Shown one piece after another: positions 4,868 to 24,723 of a stretch of 24,723 nt of DNA. The stretch is from a virus. The stretch spans positions 1-24,723 of the IMG/VR virus record IMGVR_UViG_3300046507_000901. One strand, given 5' to 3'. The notes under the pieces are model-generated. The model was not told the DNA's origin. It ran no database searches and worked only from the letters and a program-made list of their open reading frames with translations. The stretch's first letter is position 1. Every line of letters begins with the position of its first letter. Position numbers and translations under genes: made by a program.

Positions 4868-5575
4868 TTAATTAGCCAAAGTATGTATAGCGGCTGCAAC
4901 TTCTGTTGCTATTAGTCCGGCTCCCTGATCGGTCGGATGCACCTTACTTAATCCATCCGGGTCAGGACTGGCAAAATACGTAGGATCGTCGGGTGCTGCA
5001 TCCGCATATATATTGGGATGCAAAGACAAATCGGCAAATCCATCGGCGAAAGCGGGCCAATTGGCGCTTAACATCGCATTTACTGCTAATCGTTTTGAAT
5101 TTGTATCTGCCTGGGCATAACTGTCTTTACGATTCAGAATAGGCACTACTATTGTTTTCGCCCCTCCCGCACGCAATGAAGTATGACAGGCTACAATAGA
5201 ACTGTAAATGTTAGCCGCCGTCTTGTCGGGGTAGCAAATATCATTCGCGCCAAAAAACACAACACATGCTACAATATCGAAGGTGTTTACCCGAAACATG
5301 TTTATTGTGTTTATCATTTCGTTATCGTTAAACCATTGCTGTGTTTGGCCGGAAAAACCCCGAATTGTACTTGACACATTAATATCGCTCAACATTGTCA
5401 AAGCTTGTTTGGGATACGTATTGGGGCCGACAATACCGCTATTTGATTGCCCGGTCCCGGTTGTACCGATGCCGTAAGTTATACTATCGCCTAAAAAGAA
5501 AAGCTGAATACGCTTAGCAGGATTACCGCCTGACCCTGTGGAAACCATCTTCCTTATTATTGCAGCTGCTGACAT
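4868..5575 (-). CDS. SGNH/GDSL-family hydrolase of the tail locus
   Basis: A 235-residue single-domain SGNH hydrolase. Block I is LFFLGDSITYG with nucleophile S31, block II is the Gly of RGFSGQT (about G76), block III is GAND (G109, N111, D112), and block V is DGLSKVHPTD near the end. There the acidic residue lies six positions before His instead of the usual three, so the catalytic Asp is less certain. No signal peptide is seen, which fits a structural or particle-associated enzyme. The ATG shares one base with the TAA of the fibre gene (TAATG), implying coupled translation and a fibre-enzyme pair. The probable activity is deacylation of a surface glycan; the substrate is unknown. Confidence 0.88.
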   Translation of the reverse strand: MSAAAIIRKMVSTGSGGNPAKRIQLFFLGDSITYGIGTTGTGQSNSGIVGPNTYPKQALTMLSDINVSSTIRGFSGQTQQWFNDNEMINTINMFRVNTFDIVACVVFFGANDICYPDKTAANIYSSIVACHTSLRAGGAKTIVVPILNRKDSYAQADTNSKRLAVNAMLSANWPAFADGFADLSLHPNIYADAAPDDPTYFASPDPDGLSKVHPTDQGAGLIATEVAAAIHTLAN

Positions 5576-6894
5576 TAAGCATCAATTAGATTACCGGATA
5601 ATTGCACGTTAGTCAATGATGATCCCTCGGGATTCATAGAAATATCCACATACAAAGGAAAAACAGGCGCCATCAGAGATGTATAGATCAATATGTCATT
5701 TTTATAGTATTTAACATCCGTATCAGACAATACTATTTCAAGCTTTGTTGTGCCACTAATTAAAGTTCCAGTGGCTTTGCTTGTCCCACTTTCGTATATA
5801 ACGTACCCACTTGAACTATCCCAATAAAATGCATATTGAATGCTACTGTAGCTGCTATCTCCTACCGTGTTAGAAAAACCAATAACCATTGCCCCTGATA
5901 CTACTAAATGATCGAACGTTAACCGGCCTTGTTCTCCAGTACCAGATAGTTGAACTTTTTTACTGCCAATGGCGCTACCATTCCAACCACTCGAATTTGT
6001 CTTTGTTAAGGTAGTACCATCAAATTGAGTATTTATGAGATTTTGCCATATCATATAAGGGAAGTCCTGCGTAGGTGTATCAAAAGCTTTCGACATCGAC
6101 CAGTAATAATTGTTCCCATCAAAATAAAAAGCCAGCAAATCAACGGCGTTCGCGGCCGTAGAAAGTGAAAACCCCGATTCCCTGCGCGATCCGTTAGGTA
6201 GCCTTAATTTAGCGCCCCCGGTGGAACTCTGGCGCACTATTAAAATACCACATGCAAAATCGGGGACATTTGATATATCTAATCGGCAATCACCTGCGAT
6301 AGTTATATCGGCGGTATTACCAAGTAAATAATTCCACGCTGAAAGGAACGAATCTACTGTAAGGATAACATTTGAATTCGCAGCCCCCGTGAGAGCGTTC
6401 AGAGTTCCGTCCGCTGTAATAATTACGTTGCTTCCTTGTTTGACACCACCTAATACAGTATTTGTCGCTATCGGCAACGTATAATCACCGCCGCCCGCCG
6501 AAGCATCTACCCAATGCGTATCAAAATCTTCATTCGTGTTTTTTGCCAAAATTTGGCCGGGGGTGCCACCAATTGGAACACCAACACCTGCCGCGCCCGG
6601 CGCTCCGGATTCGCCTTGTGGCCCAACCGCGCCGGGAGCACCTACTCCATTTGCCACAAGCTTATCAATTTGCGCCTGCAAACCCGCGTCCGCTATCACT
6701 CTATTCGCTGTTTCATTTTGTAAATCTTCCGCCGCCCCCTTTCCGGCTAAAGTAGTCGGCAAGTTTGTTATTTTAGAAATAGGGATTGTATCTTCGTCCT
6801 TACTCCAAAAGCTGTCAATTAGCGAGGCAAATTGTCCCGCCGTAGGTTTTGCTCCTCTTGAAAAAAATGATTTTAATGATAGCCTTGATGCCAT
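5575..6894 (-). CDS. Tail fibre with shared foot, collagen-like stub and lectin-like C-terminus
   Basis: This 439-residue protein has the same N-terminal foot (MASRLSLKSFFSRGAKPTAG...) as the fibres at 2766-4604 and 22378-24723. Gly-X-Y triplets follow at about residues 81-105 (GAPGAVGPQGESGAPG), a typical trimerising fibre stub, then the linker GGTPGQILAKNTN shared with the other fibres. The last about 150 residues look like a jelly-roll or concanavalin-type lectin domain (VKYYKNDILIYTS, FPLYVDISMN). It lacks an enzymatic domain of its own, but the next gene, overlapping by one base, is a free SGNH hydrolase. I infer a receptor-binding fibre that works with that enzyme. Confidence 0.85.
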   Translation of the reverse strand: MASRLSLKSFFSRGAKPTAGQFASLIDSFWSKDEDTIPISKITNLPTTLAGKGAAEDLQNETANRVIADAGLQAQIDKLVANGVGAPGAVGPQGESGAPGAAGVGVPIGGTPGQILAKNTNEDFDTHWVDASAGGGDYTLPIATNTVLGGVKQGSNVIITADGTLNALTGAANSNVILTVDSFLSAWNYLLGNTADITIAGDCRLDISNVPDFACGILIVRQSSTGGAKLRLPNGSRRESGFSLSTAANAVDLLAFYFDGNNYYWSMSKAFDTPTQDFPYMIWQNLINTQFDGTTLTKTNSSGWNGSAIGSKKVQLSGTGEQGRLTFDHLVVSGAMVIGFSNTVGDSSYSSIQYAFYWDSSSGYVIYESGTSKATGTLISGTTKLEIVLSDTDVKYYKNDILIYTSLMAPVFPLYVDISMNPEGSSLTNVQLSGNLIDA

Positions 6895-6896
6895 TG
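6854..6896 (-). repeat. 43-bp identical fibre-start repeat, copy 1
   Basis: Identical to positions 4564-4606 and in the same orientation. Recombination between the two copies would delete the intervening cassette and fuse one foot to the other fibre body. A diverged inverted copy starts the fibre gene at 22378. Confidence 0.85.
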
Positions 6897-6921
6897 CAAT
6901 AATATATTTATAAGGTAAAAA

Positions 6922-9823: not shown

Positions 9824-10281
9824 GGTAAAAGATCGTTTATACGCGTTATCAAATCGGTTATTGCTGGTACATCCTTTGGGGCGGCAATACTCAGTACCCC
9901 CCGGACAAGATCGTTAAGGATCTTGCCCAGGGTTTCGTCGCCTTTACTGACAACGACCCCATCAGGATCCACCTTGAGAATTGTGTTGCCGGTCGTTATC
10001 CGGTACATAGCGATCTGATCACAGGCGATCACGATATAATCATCATCTGCCAGCTTCCCGATCACCACCGGAGAGCCCGCGACCGGCAACACATCAATGC
10101 TTTTATGCTCGCTCATCACTGCTCTCAGGCGGACCCCATAAATTTCCACCCCGTCCAGCGTAATATCACAGGTAAAGTCGCCCTGGTCAACAGCGATCAC
10201 GACAGCATCGAGAAAGCTCACCGGTCCGCCGGCATGGGCGAGCTTTACAAACGACCTTCTTAGTTTATTTAATTCATTCAT
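9820..10281 (-). CDS. Baseplate spike protein (gpV/gp45-like)
   Basis: A 153-residue protein with an N-terminal helix, an OB-fold-like region from about residue 20 to 95 (VVIAVDQGDFTCDITLDGVE, SPVVIGKLADDDYIVIA), then TILKVDPDGVVVSKGDETL, a strand pattern typical of the trimeric beta-helix stem, and a C-terminal helical segment. This is the domain order of P2 gpV and Mu gp45 membrane-piercing spikes, except that it ends in a helix rather than an iron-binding HxH tip. It overlaps the hub gene by 4 bases. The tip may therefore be supplied by another protein. Confidence 0.75.
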   Translation of the reverse strand: MNELNKLRRSFVKLAHAGGPVSFLDAVVIAVDQGDFTCDITLDGVEIYGVRLRAVMSEHKSIDVLPVAGSPVVIGKLADDDYIVIACDQIAMYRITTGNTILKVDPDGVVVSKGDETLGKILNDLVRGVLSIAAPKDVPAITDLITRINDLLP

Positions 10282-11387
10282 TTGACCTCTGTGTTAGTTG
10301 AATCTTCGGCCAGTCTGTAGGTCAGCTGGACTTTCCGCGAGCCCCCGTTAATTCCAAAGGAAACCTCGGTACCCTCAATAAAGTAGGTGCCCGCGCGCCC
10401 GCCGTTATACTTTTTGTCGGATATGACCGCTTTCCAGCCCGGTTTGCAATAAGGCTCCAGCAGGCCCGCAATCGACCCTTCGTACCCGTCATATTTTAAC
10501 TGCATCAAACCATTCTTAGCGAGTGCGGCAAGGCTTTCCGGATGTCCGGTAAACGGAATATTACGTTCCTCGACTGCCCCCCCGGGGTCCCCCGCCTCAT
10601 AGGTGGTGACGGTGCCGGTGCGGCTGCGCTGTTTTATCCTGACCAGCACCTTGGTATCTTTGGCCGACCTGACCTTCAGATCCGGCTGATCAGATGTACA
10701 GTTAAAACCCAGGGCATAAGTGGCCTGCGCCAGGTTGGTGTTACTATGCTGACCACCTTCACCCACCGTGGACCTCACCTCGGAAATACCCGCGTACAAA
10801 ACATTGTCGTCAAAACAGACGGTTAGGAACATCTGGTCCTTGAGCGATTCCAGCACCTGGAGACCGTTCCTGTTCGGTATCCGGTAATTCGTCAGCGGCA
10901 TGTTCGGTATTTCGGGGCTCAAGACGATATCTGTCCCCGCGATGACCTGCCCGAGCACCTCGCGGAGTGAGGTTTTCTTCCAGTTGCCCAATACGTTCCT
11001 GTTGCGGAGCTGCCATGCATAACCTTCCATTTCAATGCTGACCGGCGTCGTCATGTTAACCCGTCTGACAAAGCCTCGAAATTCGTTCCTCAACGTTCCG
11101 TTATAGCCAAGATCAATGCAGACCGGGTCCCCCTCCTTAAATAGTTTGGCAATATCAACGCTTTCCGCCCGGCGATCGGAGGCGCCCCCAGGCTCTCCCA
11201 GTCCCGCGAAACCAAGGGCGTCCCTGATGGCAGAGGTCTCCTCCTTGACGATTCGGACCACCCCGGGTATTTTGAGTACCGCGCTGTCCACGATCGTGTG
11301 AATATTCTTTTTGATCACCAAGTCGTTGACACCACCCCAGAAGCTATAATTACCTATTCTGATAAAGCTGTTCAGTACAAAAGCCAT
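10278..11387 (-). CDS. Baseplate hub protein (late control gpD/gp27-like)
   Basis: A 369-residue protein with the layout of gpD/gp27 hubs, which form the trimeric ring between tube and spike. Recognisable parts are a beta-barrel with VCIDLGYNGTLRNEFRGFV, the helical part TSLREVLGQVIAG followed by NRNGLQVLESLKDQMFL, where a Bacteroidota hub would carry the typical 'vLe.Lk..y.l.v.f' pattern, and a second barrel with KVLVRIKQRSRTG near residue 245. The C-terminal region (AGTYFIEGTEVSFGINGGSR) is the usual tube-binding strand pair. It shares one base with the upstream gene and overlaps the spike gene by 4 bases. Confidence 0.85.
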   Translation of the reverse strand: MAFVLNSFIRIGNYSFWGGVNDLVIKKNIHTIVDSAVLKIPGVVRIVKEETSAIRDALGFAGLGEPGGASDRRAESVDIAKLFKEGDPVCIDLGYNGTLRNEFRGFVRRVNMTTPVSIEMEGYAWQLRNRNVLGNWKKTSLREVLGQVIAGTDIVLSPEIPNMPLTNYRIPNRNGLQVLESLKDQMFLTVCFDDNVLYAGISEVRSTVGEGGQHSNTNLAQATYALGFNCTSDQPDLKVRSAKDTKVLVRIKQRSRTGTVTTYEAGDPGGAVEERNIPFTGHPESLAALAKNGLMQLKYDGYEGSIAGLLEPYCKPGWKAVISDKKYNGGRAGTYFIEGTEVSFGINGGSRKVQLTYRLAEDSTNTEVK

Positions 11388-11998
11388 TACTTTTTATTTG
11401 GATCGATCATTAATGTTAAAATGCTGTCGCTTTTCATCTCCATCGCGAAGTCACGGACGCCTATTACCCTTGGCTTTTCCGGAATGGATAGCTTGTAGAT
11501 CAGCACGCGGTCATTTGCGGAAAGAAAAAGGTCTGAGTACGCTGATTTCAACCGAACTTCCTCTTTACTTTCAAACACATACTTGAGCGCCTGCAGCTCG
11601 TCGCCCGGTAATTGTTCCTGATATCCGATCACGAAACCTTTGACCGAGATACTCCAGTCCTTCATGCTGATGATCTGTTTGGCCGCCCCGCCGGCTTCCG
11701 TCATTTCTGTTTCTTTAATCGTTTTTTCACGTTCAAAGCCGATGACGGTATAAGGGAAAAAATATTCTATCTGGCCGACCATAATGGTCAGCGGACAAAA
11801 CACCTCGCGCCCGATTGTATCTTGGCCACCGTACAGCGCATTACCGTAAATGTTGGTATCCGTTCTCGGACTGATACTAAAGGACGGCTCGGCAGGAGCA
11901 GGCGGAAGGTCCGGAATATGGGCTGGTTTATAGCCATACAACTGCTTAAAAATGGCAGCGATATCAAATACGGTATCGTTGTGGTTTATTGTTGACAT
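11387..11998 (-). CDS. Tail adaptor-like protein (DUF6046-like)
   Basis: A 203-residue beta-rich protein with FSISPRTDTNIYGNALYGGQ, CPLTIMVGQIEYFFPYTVI and KQIISMKDWSISVKGFVIG. The last pattern (a self-interacting strand followed by 'v.G' and a helix with EELQAL-like spacing) is common in tail-tube initiator or LysM-adaptor proteins downstream of tape measures. I recall similar Bacteroidota proteins as DUF6046, from memory and not checked. Its ATG shares a base with the tape-measure stop (TAATG). The probable role is to join tube and hub. Confidence 0.65.
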   Translation of the reverse strand: MSTINHNDTVFDIAAIFKQLYGYKPAHIPDLPPAPAEPSFSISPRTDTNIYGNALYGGQDTIGREVFCPLTIMVGQIEYFFPYTVIGFEREKTIKETEMTEAGGAAKQIISMKDWSISVKGFVIGYQEQLPGDELQALKYVFESKEEVRLKSAYSDLFLSANDRVLIYKLSIPEKPRVIGVRDFAMEMKSDSILTLMIDPNKK

Positions 11999-13902
11999 TA
12001 GTTGGGATTTACGGCGGCATTACCGCTATTAATAACCTGGTTAAACATTTCGATGAATATGGCCCTGATCTCAGCGGCTCCTTCGGTCACACTTGCCGCA
12101 TGCAGGCTGATCTGGTCCACACCAAGCTTGGCTATATTAATGACCTGGTTCCTTTGACCACCTGCACTGATACCTTTAGCAGTATCTGTAACCGTTCCCG
12201 GTACATTTGCCGTAGAGGTTCCTGGAGAAATTCCCTCGTGTGTTATTGGGGCTCCCATTGATGTTAAACCATTCAAATTCATGGCTCCTATCGGGGAATT
12301 ACTCTTTTCTGTTTTACTGCGTGAAATACCTATCCCCTTAGTGCTGGTAGCAATCGTCTGTGCGTATCCTATAAATTCCTTTCCATGTTCATTTGCACGT
12401 TTGATACGTGTTCTGATCGCATCATTGAATTCTTTGTCAGCATCTGTCGTTATATGGGCTGTGAGTATGTTTTTTGCGCCTGAGAAATCGCCGTTGAGTG
12501 CCATTTTTATAGCTTGCGCAGCATTGGAGGCTAACTGGCCTATATATTGAAATACGCTTTTGGCTTTGAGGTATAGTAGATTGAATGGAAATATATAATC
12601 GTCGACCATCTCCATAAAAAGCACTTTTCCCATACCAAAAACGCTTTTAATGATTTGCCACATTGACATCAGGCTTTTCCCTACACCATCATAACTGCTG
12701 CAAAGCCAGACAACTGCCCCAACAAGTACACCTATGATGACAAGGGGCCAGAGCATCGCCGCATCGAGTATGGCCTGCCAGGTGGTTGCAATCTGCGTCC
12801 AGGAAGAATACAATGACCAGGCTATAGCCATTGCCCCGATACCCGCCGCTATGCCATACATCAGGGGCTGATTGCTTGCAAGGCCGCTGATTACATCTGC
12901 TGCTACACCCAACACCGGTAGCAAAGTTGTCGCAAGGGAAACTCCCATGGCCTCGAACGTTCCCTTTAATGCTGTTATTTTGCCAGCTGGGCTTTCAGCC
13001 ATACGCTGCATTCCGTCATGGAAATTCCCCATAGGTCCTGTTGCCGCCTGCATCGATTCAACCAACGACCGGAAACTGATCTTCCCATTGTCCAGGTCTT
13101 CACTGAGTTCGGTCGTACTCTTGCCCGTTTTTTTGCTCATTTCCAGTAAAGGGTTAAAGCCTGCATCGATTAGTTTCGGAAGATCGTCAGCGGACAGTTT
13201 ACCGCTACCTGCCGTATTGGCGAGCACATCGGATAGCGCCTTCATTCGCTCCGAATCACCTAGGGCAATATCTCCAAGCATTTTCATGCCCGGTAAAATG
13301 TTCTCAGGAGTGACTCCGGAGGCGAGTAGCTTCTTGCCCTGTGTTAAAACGTCGTCTCCAAGCCCGCTGCTTTCCGCAAAATCATTGAGGCCGCGCTTTA
13401 AGTTACCGCCATCCTTTTTCCCTGCCATAATCGCTATTTCATTACCCGTATTTTCTTTGGATATAGCTTTTTTAAACAGATCCGTTCCTACGTCAAGAAT
13501 CTTATCCAGACCCTTTTCGGCGAGTTCTTTTATCTTTGACTCTTTTTTTTCCCCTTCTTCCCCTTCCTTCTTTCCTTTAGCGGGAGAAAGGGCGGAACTC
13601 TTATTTTCGAGCTCTGCGAATTCCTTAGCGGCTACCTTGATCTCCGTGGAAAGTTTATTTCGCTGAGTTTCAAGTTCAGCAAGTTCCTTACCGGCCATCT
13701 TGATCTCACTACTGTCTATCGCTATCTGCCTTGGCTTCGTTAGGCCTTCCATCGATTCATCCAGACGGCGTACCTGTCCCTGGATCCGTCCAAGCCGCGA
13801 ACCGATGGTATGAAAGACAGCGTTTGCATTCTGAGCGAGTAAACGCATTTGGGCGGAAGCCGCATCATGCATGACGAAACTGTATTGAATTAAAGTAATC
13901 AT
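11998..13902 (-). CDS. Tail tape-measure protein
   Basis: A 634-residue protein with a Lys/Glu-rich coiled-coil region at about residues 50-135, a helical middle with Gly-rich turns, two hydrophobic segments at about 345-365 and 380-402 (GIAAGIGAMAIAW, PLVIIGVLVGAVVW), and a low-complexity end. This is the usual composition of a tape measure, which sets tail length and is threaded through the tube. It lies directly behind the chaperone pair, where tape measures are found. The phage rule of about 0.15 nm per residue would give a tail of roughly 95 nm. Its ATG begins one base after the TAA of the frameshifted chaperone. Confidence 0.92.
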   Translation of the reverse strand: MITLIQYSFVMHDAASAQMRLLAQNANAVFHTIGSRLGRIQGQVRRLDESMEGLTKPRQIAIDSSEIKMAGKELAELETQRNKLSTEIKVAAKEFAELENKSSALSPAKGKKEGEEGEKKESKIKELAEKGLDKILDVGTDLFKKAISKENTGNEIAIMAGKKDGGNLKRGLNDFAESSGLGDDVLTQGKKLLASGVTPENILPGMKMLGDIALGDSERMKALSDVLANTAGSGKLSADDLPKLIDAGFNPLLEMSKKTGKSTTELSEDLDNGKISFRSLVESMQAATGPMGNFHDGMQRMAESPAGKITALKGTFEAMGVSLATTLLPVLGVAADVISGLASNQPLMYGIAAGIGAMAIAWSLYSSWTQIATTWQAILDAAMLWPLVIIGVLVGAVVWLCSSYDGVGKSLMSMWQIIKSVFGMGKVLFMEMVDDYIFPFNLLYLKAKSVFQYIGQLASNAAQAIKMALNGDFSGAKNILTAHITTDADKEFNDAIRTRIKRANEHGKEFIGYAQTIATSTKGIGISRSKTEKSNSPIGAMNLNGLTSMGAPITHEGISPGTSTANVPGTVTDTAKGISAGGQRNQVINIAKLGVDQISLHAASVTEGAAEIRAIFIEMFNQVINSGNAAVNPN

Positions 13903-14476: not shown

Positions 14477-14911
14477 TTATACCGACTTTAAGCTTAAGGC
14501 AATGAAAGGGCAATCGATCTCCATCAGCTTGGCGCCCTGTTCCATGCCTTTTTCAAATTCAGTGAATTTGATACCGCTTATGACGTCGGTCTGTTTCTCC
14601 CTGCCAAATGCCTCTTTATAATGGAAGGTAGCTGTGATCACCTGGTAAGGCACTTCGCTGAAATCGGCGTAGCCTGCAGCCCTTGCAGCCTTATTGAGAC
14701 GGTCCAGTTCCGATTTCAATAGCTTGATACTGCCCTCGATCTTTTTATTGCCGGTCTGGATACCGACAGGCTGGTCACCGGCAGCGAAGAGGTGTTCACT
14801 TTCCGTAGATTTTTTGTACTTAAAGCCACGCAGTCCTCGGATGGTTACACCAAGAAAACTGAGGTCCGCGTGTTTCCATTCCAGTTCCTGACTGTTTACA
14901 TAATTTGCCAT
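14477..14911 (-). CDS. Tail tube protein
   Basis: A 144-residue beta-rich protein directly behind the sheath gene (2-base gap). The pattern SFLGVTIRGLRGFKYKKSTE followed by HLFAAGDQPVGIQTGNKKIEG (split here; the key part is the 'G..p.gi..G...veG.i.l' tube signature), a central helix (LLKSELDRLNKAARAAGY) and a second strand set (VITATFHYKEAFG, DVISGIKFTEFEKGM) is typical of contractile-tail tube proteins, which stack as hexamers around the tape measure. Size and order agree. Confidence 0.88.
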   Translation of the reverse strand: MANYVNSQELEWKHADLSFLGVTIRGLRGFKYKKSTESEHLFAAGDQPVGIQTGNKKIEGSIKLLKSELDRLNKAARAAGYADFSEVPYQVITATFHYKEAFGREKQTDVISGIKFTEFEKGMEQGAKLMEIDCPFIALSLKSV

Positions 14912-14913
14912 TT

Positions 14914-16110
14914 TTAGTTGTTGTTTTGCGGGTTATTGAAACCCAGTTTGATATTGATTAATTTGCTGTATCCTTTACGGCGGATGCCTATTTCAACCTG
15001 CAGGGTCGAGGTTTGGGTGATCTGCTGGGTATCGTCTATATAAACAACCGGATCTCCGCTCATGCTTTCAGCCATATTCAGGTTAAGTGCATTGACCATA
15101 GAAGCCTCGAGTGCCTTCAGCACAACCGGCTCAATCTGGCCGTTGTCATCCAGATCGATATCATCATTGATCTCATTAACATAAGTCTGGTAGGCGACGA
15201 TCGCGGCCTTGTCGATCACACGGCCAAAAGCAAGGCTGTTGTAGTCATCCGTTTCAGGACTGGCCATCGGGTCGTTGCTGATAAACAAACCGCCCTTCTG
15301 ATCATACTTTTTGACCGTGATGTACCCTGCATCGATCAGCTGGTCAAGCTGCCTGAAATAAGCCTGCGAAGGATTATCCAGGTCCGGCAGAATGCTTTGC
15401 GTACCGATGAAATAGGTACTAACCGGTAGGTCTCCGTCTTTTACCCTGCCGATATTGACATGCGGTGCGGTAGCGGCGACCCTGCCAAGCACCAGGCCGA
15501 GAGAGGTAACACCGTTTGCTGCGGTTCCGCCGATCACCAGGCCTACATTATTGGCGGTCAGCTCATTTGGACTATCGATCGTGCTGCTTGTCACATCGTT
15601 AACGCGGGCCGCAAGCAGGATACGCAACGGTTTGTGTGCGGCAAACATGGCCTGGGCGAAAGCTTTCGCATTCGGAACCGCGGTGATCACGTCGCTGTCG
15701 ATAAACTTGGATACAGTAGGTGTATACCCGGCAACCGGGGTGCGTGCAACGGCAGCTACACGGATGTCTCCGCCGCCGAAATCGATCAGCTTTTTCAGGC
15801 CGTTTGCCACGGTGAGATCGCAAAGCGACGTTAAGCTTGTCGCCGCAGCTGCGAGCATCAGGTATACAGGGCATCCCTGTGTACCGTCAATACTGTAGAA
15901 TTCACGGACGAACTGGTAGGCCTCCGGTTCGGCGTCTTCGGTGATACCCCTGGATTCGGCATCCTCTAAGCTTACAATCTTAACCGGGGTAAGCAGCGGT
16001 AGTGTTCCCGTTCCGGAACCGGTAAGCAGAACGCCTGTTACATTGTCATTGGTTGCGGTAGAGCCGCCTAGCTGGCCTTTGGCCAGTTGTACATTTACTG
16101 CAGGAATCAT
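14914..16110 (-). CDS. Contractile tail sheath protein (DUF2586-like)
   Basis: A 398-residue protein with the features of a compact sheath: an N-terminal beta region (VNVQLAKGQLGGS), a domain with AYQFVREFYSIDG and LMLAAAATSL, a central alpha/beta part (AKAFAQAMFAAHKPLRILLA), the conserved sheath-type segment NDPMASPETDDYNSLAFGRVI followed by the helix DKAAIVAYQTYVNEI, and a C-terminal strand ending in INIKLGFNNPQ that would be donated to a neighbouring subunit. It is shorter than T4 gp18 and close to P2/pyocin sheaths. It has a good Shine-Dalgarno, AAAGGAG, about 12 bases before ATG, which fits a highly made subunit, and it shares one base with the previous stop. Confidence 0.92.
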   Translation of the reverse strand: MIPAVNVQLAKGQLGGSTATNDNVTGVLLTGSGTGTLPLLTPVKIVSLEDAESRGITEDAEPEAYQFVREFYSIDGTQGCPVYLMLAAAATSLTSLCDLTVANGLKKLIDFGGGDIRVAAVARTPVAGYTPTVSKFIDSDVITAVPNAKAFAQAMFAAHKPLRILLAARVNDVTSSTIDSPNELTANNVGLVIGGTAANGVTSLGLVLGRVAATAPHVNIGRVKDGDLPVSTYFIGTQSILPDLDNPSQAYFRQLDQLIDAGYITVKKYDQKGGLFISNDPMASPETDDYNSLAFGRVIDKAAIVAYQTYVNEINDDIDLDDNGQIEPVVLKALEASMVNALNLNMAESMSGDPVVYIDDTQQITQTSTLQVEIGIRRKGYSKLINIKLGFNNPQNNN

Positions 16111-16978: not shown

Positions 16979-17455
16979 TCAGACAGGTGTGTTAAACAGT
17001 TTCATTTCTTTTTCACGTCTTTTAACCAGCACTTCGCTGACTTTTTTCATTCCAGTTCCGGGATCGGTTACCTTGTTCCAGGCCAGGAACTGCGCCGCGG
17101 CCCCTGTATAATCCCCCTTGTTCAGCTTTTTCAGCAGGGTACTTGAGGGCAGGCTGCCGGTATTGTAGTGAAAGCAGACCAGCGCGTCATATTGGTTCTG
17201 ATTGACCGGTGCGCTTACCACCCTGTTCACCGTCCGTTCGAAGTCTTTTAAAACCGCTGAAAGCAGGTCCGCAGCGCATTCCTTGTTGGGCAGCCGGTCC
17301 GCCGGCTGTATCGCCTTGCCGTTCGCATAGTAAGTGCATCCGTAACCGATCGTCCATTTACCCGCCTCGTCCTGGTACGCGGTTAATTTCAGGCCCTCGA
17401 ACGACCTGATCATATTTAATCCGCGTTCACTGAGCGTATGTTTATTTATCGCCAT
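16979..17455 (-). CDS. Endolysin, GH24 (T4-type) lysozyme
   Basis: A 158-residue lysozyme of glycoside hydrolase family 24, cutting the MurNAc-GlcNAc bond of peptidoglycan. The catalytic triad has the exact T4 spacing: E20 in RSFEG, D29 in YQDEAG, T35 in WTIGYG. The later conserved segment NQYDALVCFHYNTGS is also present. There is no signal peptide or N-terminal anchor, so release through the holin is expected. It overlaps the holin gene by 10 bases. In a headless tail locus its job would be to lyse the producing cell to free the particles. Confidence 0.95.
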   Translation of the reverse strand: MAINKHTLSERGLNMIRSFEGLKLTAYQDEAGKWTIGYGCTYYANGKAIQPADRLPNKECAADLLSAVLKDFERTVNRVVSAPVNQNQYDALVCFHYNTGSLPSSTLLKKLNKGDYTGAAAQFLAWNKVTDPGTGMKKVSEVLVKRREKEMKLFNTPV

Positions 17456-17991
17456 AATGATGTTATTTTAGTTTTGATAGATTCGATCCAGGCTGATTTT
17501 TCCTTGCCTTCAATTACCGCCAGGTTTTCCAGTATGGAAACCATATTTTCCTGCGCGATATGAATGATCAGGAAGTTTTGCAGCCAGTCAAAGCATTCCG
17601 CCATGACCGCCTCCCCCTTGGCCGCGTAATTCTGAGACCAATGGTACGGGACCGCGATGAGCACCAGGTATATAAAGACCTTAAATGAAAACCGGGAGAG
17701 CCGAAAACTGCTGAAACGTTCCTTTTTTATTCTGGATGCGGCTATGCCGCTTAACAACTCCACCACAAAGGCCATCAGCATCATGACCAGGGCGGCTGTC
17801 TGGATACCAAGCGCGAGCGGGATATCCGGAACGAGGGAGGCCAGCCCCGAAAGACCCGGGAACGTCAGGCTCACCAGCAGCAGTGGTCTTGTCAGGCTGT
17901 ATTTATAAGAAGGGGCGATACTTTGAAAAAGGGCCCTCAGGTCCTCGTAGTCAAAAGTCACGAGCATCCTCGTTAGCAGAGAACTTATCAT
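17446..17991 (-). CDS. Phage holin (holin family 4 type)
   Basis: A 181-residue membrane protein, first gene of the tail/lysis operon. I chose the ATG at 17989-17991 (MISSLLTRML), because the upstream in-frame extension would run into the GC-rich leader hairpin. Hydrophobic segments lie around PLLLVSLTFPGLSGLASLV, ALGIQTAALVMMLMAFVVEL and FKVFIYLVLIAVPYHW. The segment ELLSGIAASRIKKERFSS between segments two and three matches the conserved loop of family-4 (toxin secretion/lysis) holins. It probably makes the inner-membrane holes that let the following lysozyme out. Confidence 0.85.
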   Translation of the reverse strand: MISSLLTRMLVTFDYEDLRALFQSIAPSYKYSLTRPLLLVSLTFPGLSGLASLVPDIPLALGIQTAALVMMLMAFVVELLSGIAASRIKKERFSSFRLSRFSFKVFIYLVLIAVPYHWSQNYAAKGEAVMAECFDWLQNFLIIHIAQENMVSILENLAVIEGKEKSAWIESIKTKITSLWR

Positions 17992-18036
17992 GGTACATAT
18001 TTTTATTATATAGATCTTAATTTTTCTTTTTTTAAA

Positions 18037-18078
18037 CCGCGCCGCCCCTGACCGTATCGGGGGACTATTAAGGCGCGG
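18037..18078 (-). promoter_or_regulatory. Strong hairpin in the 5' leader of the lysis/tail operon
   Basis: CCGCGCC (18037-18043) and GGCGCGG (18072-18078) form a perfect 7-bp stem, and CCCC/GGGG inside (18045-18048 with 18060-18063) can extend it. On the transcribed minus strand it lies about 45 bases before the holin ATG and is followed by TTT and seven A, not by a terminator-like T tract. It could control translation or stability of the leader. Confidence 0.55.
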
Positions 18079-18229
18079 GTGCACTTACGACCGGTATGCA
18101 TCTCCTACCCCTGCGGGGGGCCCTTTGATCAAGCAGCAACTGCTTTTCCCTGTTTTCCGGAGTTCCCAAACGGTCATTATAGGTTGTCATTTTTCTTATT
18201 TCCCGTCACCTTTCCAAGCGACTTCATGA

Positions 18230-18960: not shown

Positions 18961-19473
18961 ATGAGCACATCACAAACAGATGCCATCCTGGCCAATGTAT
19001 TTTTGAGCGTACAGGAGCGGCTTGCCACGATCCCGGATTTACAATTTATCGGTATGGATATCGGGCAGCTGGAATGGGGCGAAGAAAATGCGAGCCCGGT
19101 CCTATTTCCCTGCGTATTGCTTGGACGGATCGATATTAACTATACCGACAACAAGAAATCCATCCAGCAGGGGGATGCCATACTGGAATTATTACTGGCC
19201 ATGGCGACACCGGGGCCGGGGCAGGACAGCGGATCTACTGCAACTGATTATTTTAATCTTGAACACAAGATCAATCAGGCCCTGCACGGCTGGTGTGACC
19301 AGCAGTATTTCAATCCCATGAGCAGGGTCCGCGCCAGGAACAAACGCAGAAAGCGGACCGATATCCGGGTTAGAGCGCTGCGTTTCGGCTTTGGCTTCGT
19401 CGACGATACCGCCATGCAGGTCGGACAAACGGGCCAACGCCCGGAGATGGTACTGTCAATGCAATTGTCCTAA
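18961..19473 (+). CDS. Probable tail terminator/completion protein
   Basis: A 170-residue protein with an N-terminal helix (DAILANVFLSVQERLATI), the strand SPVLFPCVLLGRIDINYTD, a strand after GDAILELLLAMA, a helix (YFNLEHKINQALHGW) and a basic end-region (RVRARNKRRKRTDIRVRALRF). This order resembles tail terminators, which form a hexameric ring on the head-proximal tube end. The family assignment is inferred, not certain. In a headless particle such a cap would be needed to stop tube growth. The gene is separated from the other tail genes, on the opposite strand, with a separate promoter, a box-C element and a strong terminator directly behind it. Confidence 0.65.
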   Translation: MSTSQTDAILANVFLSVQERLATIPDLQFIGMDIGQLEWGEENASPVLFPCVLLGRIDINYTDNKKSIQQGDAILELLLAMATPGPGQDSGSTATDYFNLEHKINQALHGWCDQQYFNPMSRVRARNKRRKRTDIRVRALRFGFGFVDDTAMQVGQTGQRPEMVLSMQLS

Positions 19474-20707: not shown

Positions 20708-20866
20708 TTAAACAGATGGATAGCGAGTAGTGGTCAGCGTATGTTTTAAACCGGGGGCAACGCATCCTTTGCCCGGGCAGGTATCTCCTGCTGTACGTGC
20801 GTGCAGGACCGATCCGATACCGTGTTCCTTGATATAAGTGAATTTAATATTTTTATTTTTGCTCAT
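20708..20866 (-). CDS. Small unknown protein, first gene of regulatory operon
   Basis: A 52-residue protein, MSKNKNIKFTYIKEHGIG at the start and a CPGKGC motif in the middle. I chose the ATG at 20864-20866 because AAAGGA lies eight bases before it and the promoter described at 20888-20919 would give a leader of suitable length. It diverges from the repressor gene, and an operator lies in its promoter, so it should be induced when the repressor is inactivated. No family is recognised; size and position fit an anti-repressor or small regulator, but this is speculation. Confidence 0.6.
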   Translation of the reverse strand: MSKNKNIKFTYIKEHGIGSVLHARTAGDTCPGKGCVAPGLKHTLTTTRYPSV

Positions 20867-20887: not shown

Positions 20888-20919
20888 CAAATATTAGACT
20901 ATTGTCTATTATTTACAAA
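20888..20919 (-). promoter_or_regulatory. Promoter of the small-gene operon
   Basis: On the minus strand TTTG (20919-20916), 19 bases, then TAATATTTG (20896-20888), which is TAnnTTTG with one extra base. AAAGGA and the ATG at 20866 follow. Operator O1 occupies the spacer and touches the -7 element, so repressor binding would block this promoter. Confidence 0.7.
20894..20909. promoter_or_regulatory. Repressor operator O1
   Basis: TTAGAC-TATT-GTCTAT: half-sites AGAC/GTCT with a 4-base spacer, nearly perfect. It lies within the small-operon promoter and 31 bp (about three helical turns) centre to centre from O2. Confidence 0.7.
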
Positions 20920-20924
20920 TAAAA

Positions 20925-20940
20925 TTCGACAAAAGTCTAA
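20925..20940. promoter_or_regulatory. Repressor operator O2
   Basis: TTCGAC-AAAA-GTCTAA: the same GAC-N4-GTC form with one half-site change. It lies 15 bases before the repressor ATG, so it could give autoregulation. Confidence 0.7.
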
Positions 20941-20955
20941 TAACGTTATCAAATT

Positions 20956-21852
20956 ATGCCTAATAGCCCCATAGACAGGCTTTTAATTTTTTTAGCCCAC
21001 AAAAAGATTTCTCCCTCAAAGGCGGAAAGACAGTTATCGCTGGGAAATGGCTATATAAAAAAGTCCCAGCAACGGGACGGCGGCATAGGAAGCGCCATAC
21101 TGGAAAAGATCTGCAGGACATACTTAGACATTAGTCTAACATGGCTTATCACCGGCGAGGGAGCGATGCTGCTTGACGAAAAAAGCGGAGCCGTATCAGC
21201 CCCAGATGAAGCGCAAACGGTTACCGCAACAGTTGCGGCCGCCGGTACAAGCAGGCGCCCCGGCAGCTTCAAACAGCTTCAGGCTACGTCGCCCCCGATC
21301 TCTCCGCTCCAGGTGATCAGCGTGGACAGCGATGGTAACGAAACTATTTTGTACGTCCCCCTGAGAGCTTCAGCCGGCTACCCCAAGGGATACGCTGACC
21401 GGGAATATATGGAAAAGCTAACTTCTTTCAGCTTGCCATACCTGAACAACGGAACGCACCGGGCATTCGAGGTAGACGGTGACAGCATGTTCCCAACGCT
21501 CGAAAACAAGGAGATCGTAGTAGGGCGCTTTGTAGAAAAGTTTGAGGATATTGTAGAAGATCATGTGCACATCATTGTAACCAGGGACCGGGGTATACTG
21601 ATCAAGAGACTGCTGAACAGGATCCAGAAATATGGCTTTATCGTCGCCAAATCCGATGCCCTGGACAACCGTAACCTGTATCCTAACCAGGAGATCTACC
21701 CCGATGAAGTGGTGGAGGTCTGGTTTGCAGTGGGCCACATCAATAATAAGTTCCGGCACCCGACAGACATGTATAAGCGCGTGAACAACTTGGAGGCGGA
21801 CCTTACAGAAATCATGAGGGTGCTGAAGTCGAAAAACCTGCTGGATAAATAA
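20956..21852 (+). CDS. HTH / S24-peptidase phage-type repressor (CI/LexA-like)
   Basis: A 298-residue repressor. Residues 1-65 form an HTH-like DNA-binding region (PSKAERQLSLGNGYIKKS). The C-terminal half is an S24 (LexA/CI) autoprotease: the cleavage site is Ala140-Gly141 in RASAGYPKGY, the nucleophile is S177 in VDGDSMFPTL, and the general base is K217 in GILIKRLL. The linker is Ala/Pro/Thr-rich. On DNA damage, RecA-stimulated self-cleavage should inactivate it, as known for the family. Operators O1 and O2 are just upstream and O3 lies in codons 57-62. There is no good Shine-Dalgarno and I could not resolve its own promoter. A stem-loop follows at 21945-21968. Confidence 0.92.
   Translation: MPNSPIDRLLIFLAHKKISPSKAERQLSLGNGYIKKSQQRDGGIGSAILEKICRTYLDISLTWLITGEGAMLLDEKSGAVSAPDEAQTVTATVAAAGTSRRPGSFKQLQATSPPISPLQVISVDSDGNETILYVPLRASAGYPKGYADREYMEKLTSFSLPYLNNGTHRAFEVDGDSMFPTLENKEIVVGRFVEKFEDIVEDHVHIIVTRDRGILIKRLLNRIQKYGFIVAKSDALDNRNLYPNQEIYPDEVVEVWFAVGHINNKFRHPTDMYKRVNNLEADLTEIMRVLKSKNLLDK
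21124..21139. promoter_or_regulatory. Intragenic repressor operator O3
   Basis: TTAGAC-ATTA-GTCTAA, with perfect 6-bp inverted half-sites, inside the repressor coding region (codons for ...LDISL...). It is the best match among the three operators. Its distance of about 200 bp from O1/O2 would allow DNA looping or a roadblock to repressor transcription. Confidence 0.65.
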
Positions 21853-22260: not shown

Positions 22261-22377
22261 CCCTGAAAAGGATCATAACGATACACAATGCTTTCATTCC
22301 TCCATGCAGTTACAGCTCAAACGTTTTGCACTGCAGGATGAATGCTAAATTTCAATCATTTAAATTATTAAACTATA

Positions 22378-24723
22378 ATGGCATCAAGATTAACATTAAA
22401 AGGCTTTTTTAAAAAAGGAGCGAAACCAACGGCTGGCCAGTTTGCTTCCTGGATAGACTCATTCTGGCATAAGGATGAAGATGCGATTCCGGTTGACAAA
22501 GTAGCTGGTTTATCAGAAGTTTTAGCCGGCAAAACATCGACGGACTCGCTGGACTATGAAACAGCCCAAAGGGTTTCAGCGGATTCAAACTTACAATCCC
22601 AAATCGATTATCTTACTAACCGCGGCATAGACTACATTGCGGAAAATGCCGCAAATAAAAACGCCGCAAACGGCTATGCGGGGTTAGATGAAACAGGCAA
22701 AATCGCTGCAGCTCAATTGCCCTCTTATGTGGACGACGTGATGGAATTTGCGGTTTTTTCAGCACTGCCTGTACCGGGGGATCCTGGTAAAATCTATATA
22801 ACCACTGACAATAATAACGAATACCGGTGGAGTGGTTCAACCTATGTTCAAATCGTCGCCTCGCCCGGTTCTACCGATGCTGTACCGGAAGGCGCAACAA
22901 ACAAGTATTTTACGGGTTCAAGAGTATTAAACGCTATTTTAACCGGAATTAGCTTTGGTACATCTGCAGCAGTTACGGCAACAGATACCATCTCACAGGC
23001 TTTGGGTAAATTACAGGCTCAAATAACGGGTTTGTTTAAAATCCCCACAGGCGGTGCAGCCGGACAGGTACTGGCTAAAAACAGCAATACAGATGGTGAT
23101 GTGTATTGGGTAAATGCGCCATCTGAAGGAGCACAAGGCCCCGCCGGTGTCGGCGTTCCCAATGGGGGGACGGCAGGTCAGATATTAGCTAAAAACACCA
23201 ATACCGATGGCGATACACATTGGATTAATGCGCCGTCCGGCGGCGGCAGCGGTTCCTCAGAACCTTCCGGCCAAATAAAATCTTTCCGGGTTGATTACGG
23301 CGCAGCAGGTGACGGGGTGACCAACGACCTGGCTGCTATCAATAATGCTATTGCGGCCAATGATGTCTTAGAGGACAACGGGGACTTCTTTATATCAGGA
23401 GGGAGTATTTCAAATAAATATGGAAAAAGAATCCAGGGGAATATCCGCTTTCTTCAGAACAGTGTTAACGGCACAGGCCAGTTACAGCAATTAAACAGCT
23501 ACGCGGATGACGGCCAGCATATTTTTGGCGCTGAATATTTGAGTTCTTTTCATAAAAAATTGAAAGCTAACATGACCGCCACTACGCCTACTCCATTAAC
23601 GATCGTATTTAGCGGAGATAGCACTACAGCAGGAACGGAAGACGGATCGGATACGGCTATAGACCAGTTATTCACAGTCATGATGGCCAAGGATTACATA
23701 CCTGCTATAACTACAGTGAATCATGGCAGGGGTGGTAAAACTGCTTCAGACTGGCTGTCGACCTATCTGGCAGACGATCTGGCGGCTAACCCTGATGTCC
23801 TGGTGATCAGATGGGGGATTAATGACACCGCCAATGGTGTCACGCCGAAACAGTTAGTGGACATGATGGATGCTGGTCTCAGCACCATTCGCAGCAATTC
23901 TTCTTTCACCAAAAACAAGCTTGCTATCGTATTATGCTCTATGAATACAACTACAGACGACCATCTCAGTCACAAGGGGGAGATATTCAACGAAGAGTAT
24001 AACAGGGGCTTAAGAACACTTGCAAGAAAATATGCTTGCTGCTATATAGATATATACGCTTTGTGGCAGGATGCAAGACAAGGCCATGATTATTTCATCC
24101 CATACGATACAAGCAATTACCCTAATGAATTTATACACCCATCAAGATCATTTAAGATTTTGATCGCATGCAAAACTTATGAGATTTTATTCCCTATATA
24201 TTACAGAGGCAGAGATATTGTAGACCTTGGAGCATCATCACGCTTATTTACAGCGCCACCGACTTCATATCGTTATGGAATGACCTACGAATGCGTCAAC
24301 ACATCTAACGGCTGGCCTATAGATGGATTTTTGATCACTCACCGGCTTAATTATGATATGTACAGGCAAGAACTGGCTTCCTATGGTTCTACTGATAATA
24401 AACTGTATATAAGGGTTGGATGGAATGCGGGAGGCTGGCAGCCTTTTTATGTTGTGGAACCGCTACCAGTTCAAACTTCATATAACAGGAATAATTCCGG
24501 GGCAAAATTTACTGATGCCTATACATCCTGGCCCAATTTTGCGATGACGATGGAATATGTCGAAACAACTAACGGCTGGCCTGTTGACGGCGTTTTACAT
24601 ACCATGAGAATAGAAGGCATCTTTAATCAGACACTGACAAGTTACAGTACACCACTCCGTCAATTTGTTAGAGGTGGTTTCTTGAGCGCCGGCACATTTA
24701 AAGAAGTTAGTTTTATCTCTTAA
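22378..24723 (+). CDS. Large tail fibre with SGNH domain and two pyocin-knob-like repeats
   Basis: A 781-residue protein. Residues 1-55 are the foot domain (MASRLTLKGFFKKGAKPTAG...) shared with the minus-strand fibres. A helical part and two linkers follow (GGAAGQVLAKNSNTDGD, GGTAGQILAKNTNTDGD) around a GPAGVGVP stub. Next comes an SGNH domain with S415 in FSGDST, GIND (G480, N482, D483) and EFIHPS (E584, H587), where Glu replaces the usual Asp. Two tandem repeats with the signature NGWP-[IV]-DG (about 621-700 and 713-781) resemble pyocin-knob domains of tail fibres. The gene is complete, lies inverted on the far side of the locus, and has its own promoter and box B. Confidence 0.88.
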   Translation: MASRLTLKGFFKKGAKPTAGQFASWIDSFWHKDEDAIPVDKVAGLSEVLAGKTSTDSLDYETAQRVSADSNLQSQIDYLTNRGIDYIAENAANKNAANGYAGLDETGKIAAAQLPSYVDDVMEFAVFSALPVPGDPGKIYITTDNNNEYRWSGSTYVQIVASPGSTDAVPEGATNKYFTGSRVLNAILTGISFGTSAAVTATDTISQALGKLQAQITGLFKIPTGGAAGQVLAKNSNTDGDVYWVNAPSEGAQGPAGVGVPNGGTAGQILAKNTNTDGDTHWINAPSGGGSGSSEPSGQIKSFRVDYGAAGDGVTNDLAAINNAIAANDVLEDNGDFFISGGSISNKYGKRIQGNIRFLQNSVNGTGQLQQLNSYADDGQHIFGAEYLSSFHKKLKANMTATTPTPLTIVFSGDSTTAGTEDGSDTAIDQLFTVMMAKDYIPAITTVNHGRGGKTASDWLSTYLADDLAANPDVLVIRWGINDTANGVTPKQLVDMMDAGLSTIRSNSSFTKNKLAIVLCSMNTTTDDHLSHKGEIFNEEYNRGLRTLARKYACCYIDIYALWQDARQGHDYFIPYDTSNYPNEFIHPSRSFKILIACKTYEILFPIYYRGRDIVDLGASSRLFTAPPTSYRYGMTYECVNTSNGWPIDGFLITHRLNYDMYRQELASYGSTDNKLYIRVGWNAGGWQPFYVVEPLPVQTSYNRNNSGAKFTDAYTSWPNFAMTMEYVETTNGWPVDGVLHTMRIEGIFNQTLTSYSTPLRQFVRGGFLSAGTFKEVSFIS

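Follow-up and report, generated by a model that had tools for sequence, protein, structure and literature searches.

Gene content of the window

The window, by which we mean the whole 24,723-nucleotide stretch of viral DNA analyzed here (IMG/VR record IMGVR_UViG_3300046507_000901), carries contractile-tail, baseplate, fibre, and lysis genes identified in gene-family searches. These belong to a Bacteroidota tail island (1036-21852) that includes a hub (10278-11998), tape measure (11998-13902), tube (14477-14911), sheath (14914-16110), lysozyme (16979-17455), and holin (17446-18084). The gene-family searches of the window found no terminase, portal, or integrase, and on its gene content the window may thus represent a headless, tailocin-like island under a CI-like repressor rather than a phage fragment, although the record may be incomplete. 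The island is perhaps a tailocin of Mucilaginibacter-type hosts. One tube-like gene also matches a PHROG family labelled major head protein, and another gene has a head-fibre Pfam match below the cut-off. Another genome (G376) has a similar island, with pieces of DNA that are 78-88% identical, bordered by an IS110 element on one side and by conjugation genes on the other.

A plus-strand gene (18961-19473) of PHROG 6911, a family without an assigned function, separates the small leftward genes from the lysis genes, and the G376 island has an ORF (L211:2612-3124) that equals it in length and orientation. A GDSL-lipase/tail-fibre-type gene occupies positions 22378-24723 of the plus strand. Two segments of the window in opposite orientations, 22377-22482 and 6781-6910, both match a single part of the fibre region in G376, as if fibre modules had been duplicated or inverted.

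The putative repressor

At the right end of the island, a plus-strand gene (20956-21852) encodes a protein of 298 amino acids comprising a five-helix helix-turn-helix (HTH) domain, a linker, an S24 domain, and a predicted C-terminal helix. The structure model has a mean pLDDT of 69 and was therefore used at the level of domains only. It places five helices in residues 5-66, as in the HTH domains of the lambda/434/P22 type, and a re-check of Foldseek matches aligned this N-terminal part with P22 c2 (Z 8.0, rmsd 2.0, 64 residues aligned) and the C-terminal part with both LexA (Z 13.1, rmsd 2.5, 119 aligned) and lambda CI (8gmu; Z 11.3, rmsd 3.0, 117 aligned). The Pfam Peptidase_S24 match is just below the curated cut-off (E 7.1e-5), and the repressor sequence, searched against PDB chains, had no match. 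The Ala140-Gly141 bond, Ser177, and Lys217, corresponding to the Ala-Gly cleavage site and Ser-Lys dyad of S24 proteins, are invariant in 20/20 homologs. Confidence in the predicted C-terminal helix (269-292) is modest, and the helix is not in itself evidence of oligomerisation. The gene thus appears to encode an S24 (CI/LexA-type) repressor, and its product would be expected to undergo RecA-stimulated self-cleavage.

Three operators and a leftward promoter

A preliminary description of this DNA had proposed three GAC-N4-GTC operators at the repressor, and all three are present. O1 (20894-20909, TTAGACTATTGTCTAT) was said to sit between the -33 and -7 elements of a promoter, and it is indeed bracketed by leftward-strand TTTG elements at 20919-20916 and 20891-20888, touching the -7 element. 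O2 (20925-20940, TTCGACAAAAGTCTAA) adjoins the repressor start on its upstream side and is probably the autoregulatory operator; its centre is 31 bp from that of O1, as claimed, or about three helical turns. O3 (21124-21139, TTAGACATTAGTCTAA) is a perfect palindrome within repressor codons 57-62, where it had been reported, running from base 1 of codon 57 to base 1 of codon 62. The O2-O3 and O1-O3 centre distances are 199 bp and 230 bp, and the sites together span 246 bp, in keeping with the 250 bp first given.

A scan of the whole 24,723-base window for TTAGAC-N4-GTCTAA with at most one mismatch returned O1, O2, and O3 only, against 0.03 matches expected, and 0/100 shuffled windows contained three. 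Allowing two mismatches added a single match (5479-5494), which lies inside a GDSL-lipase/tail-fibre-type gene, so operator copies are absent near the tail promoters, bearing out the earlier observation. The related G376 island has the same three sites with spacings of 31 and 199 bp and no others with up to two mismatches in 40 kb; the wider search for the motif that had been suggested therefore yielded no further site with at most one mismatch in either the window or these 40 kb. The region had no nucleotide match in the phage collection. That other copies are lacking is consistent with indirect control of the tail genes, as first proposed.

Bacteroidota promoters of the -33/-7 type have the consensus elements TTTG and TAnnTTTG. 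On the minus strand, the candidate -33 element TTTG (20916-20919) lies between O1 and O2, and the candidate -7 element TAATATTTG (20888-20896), one base longer than TAnnTTTG, overlaps the outer end of O1. The two TTTG elements are 28 bp apart, which fits a promoter of this type with O1 inside its spacer. The first small leftward gene (20708-20866, minus, ATG at 20866) lies downstream of this promoter, presumed to be the lytic one and to be controlled by O1. A family search with a longer ORF in its frame gave no match. We did not find the rightward promoter of the repressor itself in the window, where TTTA stands at the place at which two close homologs, L005 and L012, have TTTG, and a scan for sigma-70 promoters gave matches no more often than chance. 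We also considered an antisense promoter under O3; no TTTG element adjoins O3.

Codon conservation at O3

Lack of conservation at synonymous positions had been named beforehand as the result that would speak against O3. Homologs instead have identical O3 codons while neighbouring codons drift. O1, O2, and O3 are all letter-identical to the window in L005 (91% identical). L012 (85%), in which O1 is a perfect palindrome, keeps the O3 codons TTA GAC ATT AGT CTA, and many surrounding codons are synonymously changed. The more distant L016 and L017 (48% and 50% amino acid identity) have TTA GAC ATT AAT CTA at the same place; in each comparison with the window, 4/4 shared O3 residues keep their codon, compared with 50/128 and 46/132 shared residues elsewhere. 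Over five pairs drawn from four lineages including the window and L012, with the window-L012 pair left out, the same codon was used at 21/21 shared residues inside O3 vs 240/646 elsewhere, members being shared between these pairs, which are not independent. Among 1000 permutations of synonymous codons within the window gene, none reached the observed O3 score (p=0.001, the lowest value that the test allows).

A possible objection is that O3 is a coincidence of coding, in which conserved residues (LDISL, LEKIL) written in AT-rich codons happen to resemble an operator. LDINL in an unrelated gene also gives TTAGACATTAATCTAA, and helix-4 motifs favour near-palindromes. Across 399 genomes, TTAGACATTARTCTAA occurs at 5 places, three of them at the O3 place in repressor homologs and two in unrelated genes; a reversed control occurs at 4, so the string is hardly commoner than its control and its location alone is notable. 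A scan of viral contigs with TTAGACATTARTCTAANNTGG found 7 stretches, with a repressor in only one of them (the L005 contig), and for that reason lends no support to generality. Against coincidence, the permutation test preserves the protein and still gives p=0.001. Together with the results from other loci given below, this leaves the coincidence reading already disfavoured, and we consider it highly improbable.

Third sites in other repressor loci

We extended the analysis to 204 dereplicated repressor loci. Before any counts were made, we discarded loci with 80% or more identity across the ungapped N-terminus. This reduced the discovery set from 99 to 92 loci and took 31 loci from the first later set; from the second, 30 loci were discarded as redundant or as having no start codon, and 3 of the remainder could not be analyzed (2 in the first later set, 1 in the second). 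For each locus, the best pair of similar upstream palindromes was chosen blind to the gene, and the gene was then scored with the locus's own pair against synonymous codon permutations. An O1/O2-like pair 28-34 bp apart and with an adequate score was present in 102 loci. The other 102 were left out of the main counts before any third site was scored, as some pairs are overlooked or put in the wrong place by the automatic search; among these loci, a third site at p<=0.05 was seen in 7/44 discovery loci, 1/18 of the first later set (read by hand), and 5/40 of the second.

Among the 102 loci with a pair, 65 have a third site inside the gene at p<=0.05, and 37 have no significant one. The discovery set contributed 31/48 (16/48 at p<=0.01), and the same procedure gave 18/26 and 16/28 in the first and second later sets. 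Related sequences among the loci are not independent even once dereplicated; with dereplication to 50% identity of the aligned N-terminus, a third site was still found in 24/43. In whole-locus searches, the best site other than O1 and O2 fell at +100 to +220 from the start codon in 55/74 loci of the first two sets (mean 3.2 kb per locus) and in 20/28 of the second later set. The window's O3 lies between the codons for helix 4 and helix 5, and many relatives use helix 4 codons; the near-palindromic character of the latter may make a third site easy to evolve.

The operators of loci with a third site are often quite different in sequence from those of the window. When genes were scored with operators from other, dissimilar loci, p<=0.05 was reached in 12/268 tests, which is the chance rate, whereas operators from other but similar loci reached it in 40/176. 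The third site therefore tracks the specificity of its own repressor, and both this and the 65/102 loci that pass a protein-preserving permutation count against coincidence. The same result bears on whether O3 might be the site of another regulator of the same specificity, such as a Cro-like protein or an antirepressor complex. Composite CI/MOR binding in phage TP901-1, whose OD operator lies in mor, offers a model for such an arrangement, and the window has small leftward genes without an assigned function. No HTH family was matched by the small leftward ORFs tested, however, and O3 follows the repressor's own operators; we regard a different regulator as very improbable.

Leftward-strand TTTG elements were placed relative to the O1/O2 midpoint in the 49 loci of the first two sets that passed both filters. 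They pile up at -28/-29 (33 cases) and at 0 (19 cases, with 6 more at -2), indicating that O1 typically sits in the spacer of a leftward promoter whose -33 element lies between O1 and O2.

One of six named phages was positive. Porphyromonas phage008a has O1 at -36, O2 at -6, and O3 at +158 (p=0.003), as scored with a pair finder that permits O2 to touch the start codon. No significant third site was found in TCUEAP3, Ingeline_1, Porphyromonas phage010a and phage005a, or fF4, in several of which either the start as annotated or the pair chosen automatically is open to doubt. In Elizabethkingia phage TCUEAP3 (L213), palindromes of the TACAGA-N4-TCTG type at -30 and +11 lie on either side of the start codon annotated for the repressor, and either this start or the second operator may have been misjudged.

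Operator spacing and helical phase

O1 and O2 are 29-34 bp apart across 61 selected loci, and O2-O3 distances range over the loci from 138 to 202 bp. In 30 discovery loci, the latter cluster at 150-151, 160-163, 171-175, 179-184, 192, and 199-202 bp and are in phase at 10.5 bp (R 0.55), and the single positions of O3 (R 0.16) and O2 (R 0.13) are unphased. This phase was recorded as a prediction ahead of the two later sets. In V-tests, p was 0.06-0.08 for the first later set alone and 0.014-0.017 for the second; combining the two (n=31) gave p=0.0043-0.0068 over three periods, with p=0.0068 at 10.5 bp. Re-pairing O2 and O3 among loci at 10.5 bp gave p=0.0004 for the 25 loci left after dereplication to 50% and p=0.024 for the 16 left at 45%. 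The best period across all 61 loci was about 10.0 bp, these loci having been preselected with p<=0.05 and O3 at +100 to +220 as requirements, and with phylogenetic dependence remaining among them. Placement on the same helical face, as in a looping autoregulator, is therefore seen for the set of relatives; the window itself contributes the distances 31, 199, and 230 bp.

The preliminary description had offered looping or roadblock autoregulation as possible roles for O3, and codon conservation and the co-varying third sites support a role of this kind, with the phasing favouring a loop. The main rival is a transcription roadblock, in which repressor bound at codons 57-62 would stall polymerase on its own gene and provide feedback without a loop. 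In the scored loci, the third site is always downstream of the repressor start and within the repressor's own gene, which suits a roadblock. It requires neither a distance of 138-202 bp nor a helical phase relative to O2, however, and both are seen. The persistence length of DNA is about 150 bp, and because the range of distances begins near this value and is phased, we prefer looping. According to the accessible text of PMC6237814, the controller C.Kpn2I acts as a roadblock from a site in its own coding region, which also argues for the rival, but that site is intragenic with none upstream of its promoters, whereas here there are two upstream sites. We judge the roadblock on its merits to be unlikely, and it could operate at the same time as a loop.

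Cellular LexA-like repressors

Among the S24 matches from the same host family is a non-canonical LexA already described in the literature, whose motif is CTAA-N5-TTAG. The non-canonical LexA of Bacteroidetes binds CTAA-N5-TTAG or GGA-N5-TCC, at sites that are upstream in the accessible text of the study describing it (PMC8565304); from its main text, the words intragenic, coding region, and downstream are absent. We examined 60 cellular lexA-like genes hand-picked from a homolog listing (L218-L277). CTAA-N5-TTAG occurs within 250 bp upstream in 60/60, and 22/60 also have a perfect intragenic copy, always at +147 or +160 and nowhere else in the gene. After dereplication, a perfect intragenic site was present in 14/50 genes vs 0.97 expected from synonymous permutation, and a site with at least 7/8 bases in 45/50 vs 13.7. 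The leucine codon of the site is CTA in 42/47 alignable dereplicated genes, compared with 67/925 other leucine codons, so that a codon rare elsewhere is kept at the site, a further point against coding coincidence. The commonest distance from the upstream to the intragenic site is 168 bp, or 16 turns of 10.5.

In a phylum-wide sample, an intragenic SOS-repressor site was not found beyond Sphingobacteriaceae-like genes. A perfect upstream motif was present in 9/25 sampled genes, of which 4/9 have an intragenic match of at least 7/8 and 5/9 have none; three genes with 7/8 matches in the gene and no perfect upstream motif were not counted. On this sequence evidence, the cellular SOS repressor of Sphingobacteriaceae-type genomes also appears to keep an intragenic site. 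Three of the 5/9 genes without one, from other Bacteroidota (L285, L287, L288), have an alternative arrangement of two upstream CTAA-N5-TTAG sites 22-23 bp apart with no intragenic site.

Proposed mechanism and significance

The three palindromes would be binding sites of the adjacent S24 repressor, with one dimer per site. We think it probable that O1 serves to block the lytic promoter, O2 to autoregulate, and O3 to anchor a helically phased loop. From its placement, an occupied O1 would occlude RNA polymerase at the leftward promoter, and at O2, three helical turns away, the repressor would hold down its own gene, presumably binding cooperatively with O1. O3 would be a third high-affinity site, which a tetrameric or larger repressor on O1/O2 could reach through a loop on the same face of the helix. 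We infer this loop from the conservation, co-variation, and helical phasing of O3; it would strengthen repression at the two divergent promoters and keep the amount of repressor low. Since the S24 residues are conserved, DNA damage would be expected to lead to RecA-stimulated self-cleavage at Ala140-Gly141, dissolving the loop and opening the leftward operon, and the tail genes further left would then be switched on indirectly.

The matching third site at a similar place in many distant relatives suggests that the repressor ties its own gene into a short DNA loop. More tentatively, with odds that we place somewhat short of even, a phased intragenic third operator may be a general and old design of Bacteroidota phage-type S24 repressors, re-evolved by prophage and tail-island repressors at each change of DNA specificity and kept in the Sphingobacteriaceae LexA-like SOS regulator. 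If so, part of the HTH coding sequence from helix 4 to helix 5 doubles as an operator. Lysogeny control in Bacteroidota phages is little studied, and a recurring intragenic operator would provide a readable motif for each phage, with three sites rather than two, and predict a loop. The third operator also shows regulatory DNA constraining coding sequence in step with repressor specificity. Additionally, through the corresponding site in the SOS repressor, phage switches are connected with the phylum's SOS control, and domestication of a phage repressor becomes a testable idea.

Comparison with known systems

In the open-access literature, which leaves out most subscription papers, we came across no account of a third operator that lies inside the gene, co-varies with the others, and recurs among Bacteroidota repressors. 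Intragenic operators and looping are each already known singly. The looping operators of lac and ara and the intragenic operator of purR are auxiliary operators 100-400 bp away, phased or intragenic; they involve other repressor families and are not part of a prophage switch. C.Kpn2I likewise has a site within its own coding region and is negatively autoregulated. It is, however, a restriction-modification controller with an intragenic site only, and the accessible text describes no upstream pair or helical phasing (PMC6237814), whereas O1 and O2 here lie upstream.

The Bacteroidetes non-canonical LexA resembles the window repressor in being an autoregulated S24 repressor with a CI-like N-terminal domain, as far as the accessible text describes it (PMC8565304), but its motifs are CTAA-N5-TTAG and GGA-N5-TCC, whereas the window repressor's own gene has TTAGAC-N4-GTCTAA. 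TP901-1 CI is also a temperate-phage repressor with three operators (OR, OL, and OD) near divergent promoters; that CI is of another type and acts with MOR, and in the accessible text OD is not placed in the repressor gene (PMC7250872). Mycobacteriophage BPs has a different repressor and half-site structure, and the text available mentions no third site within its repressor gene (PMC4557955). Its arrangement is otherwise similar to that of the window, with one operator between the -10 and -35 elements of the lytic promoter and a second beside the repressor gene.
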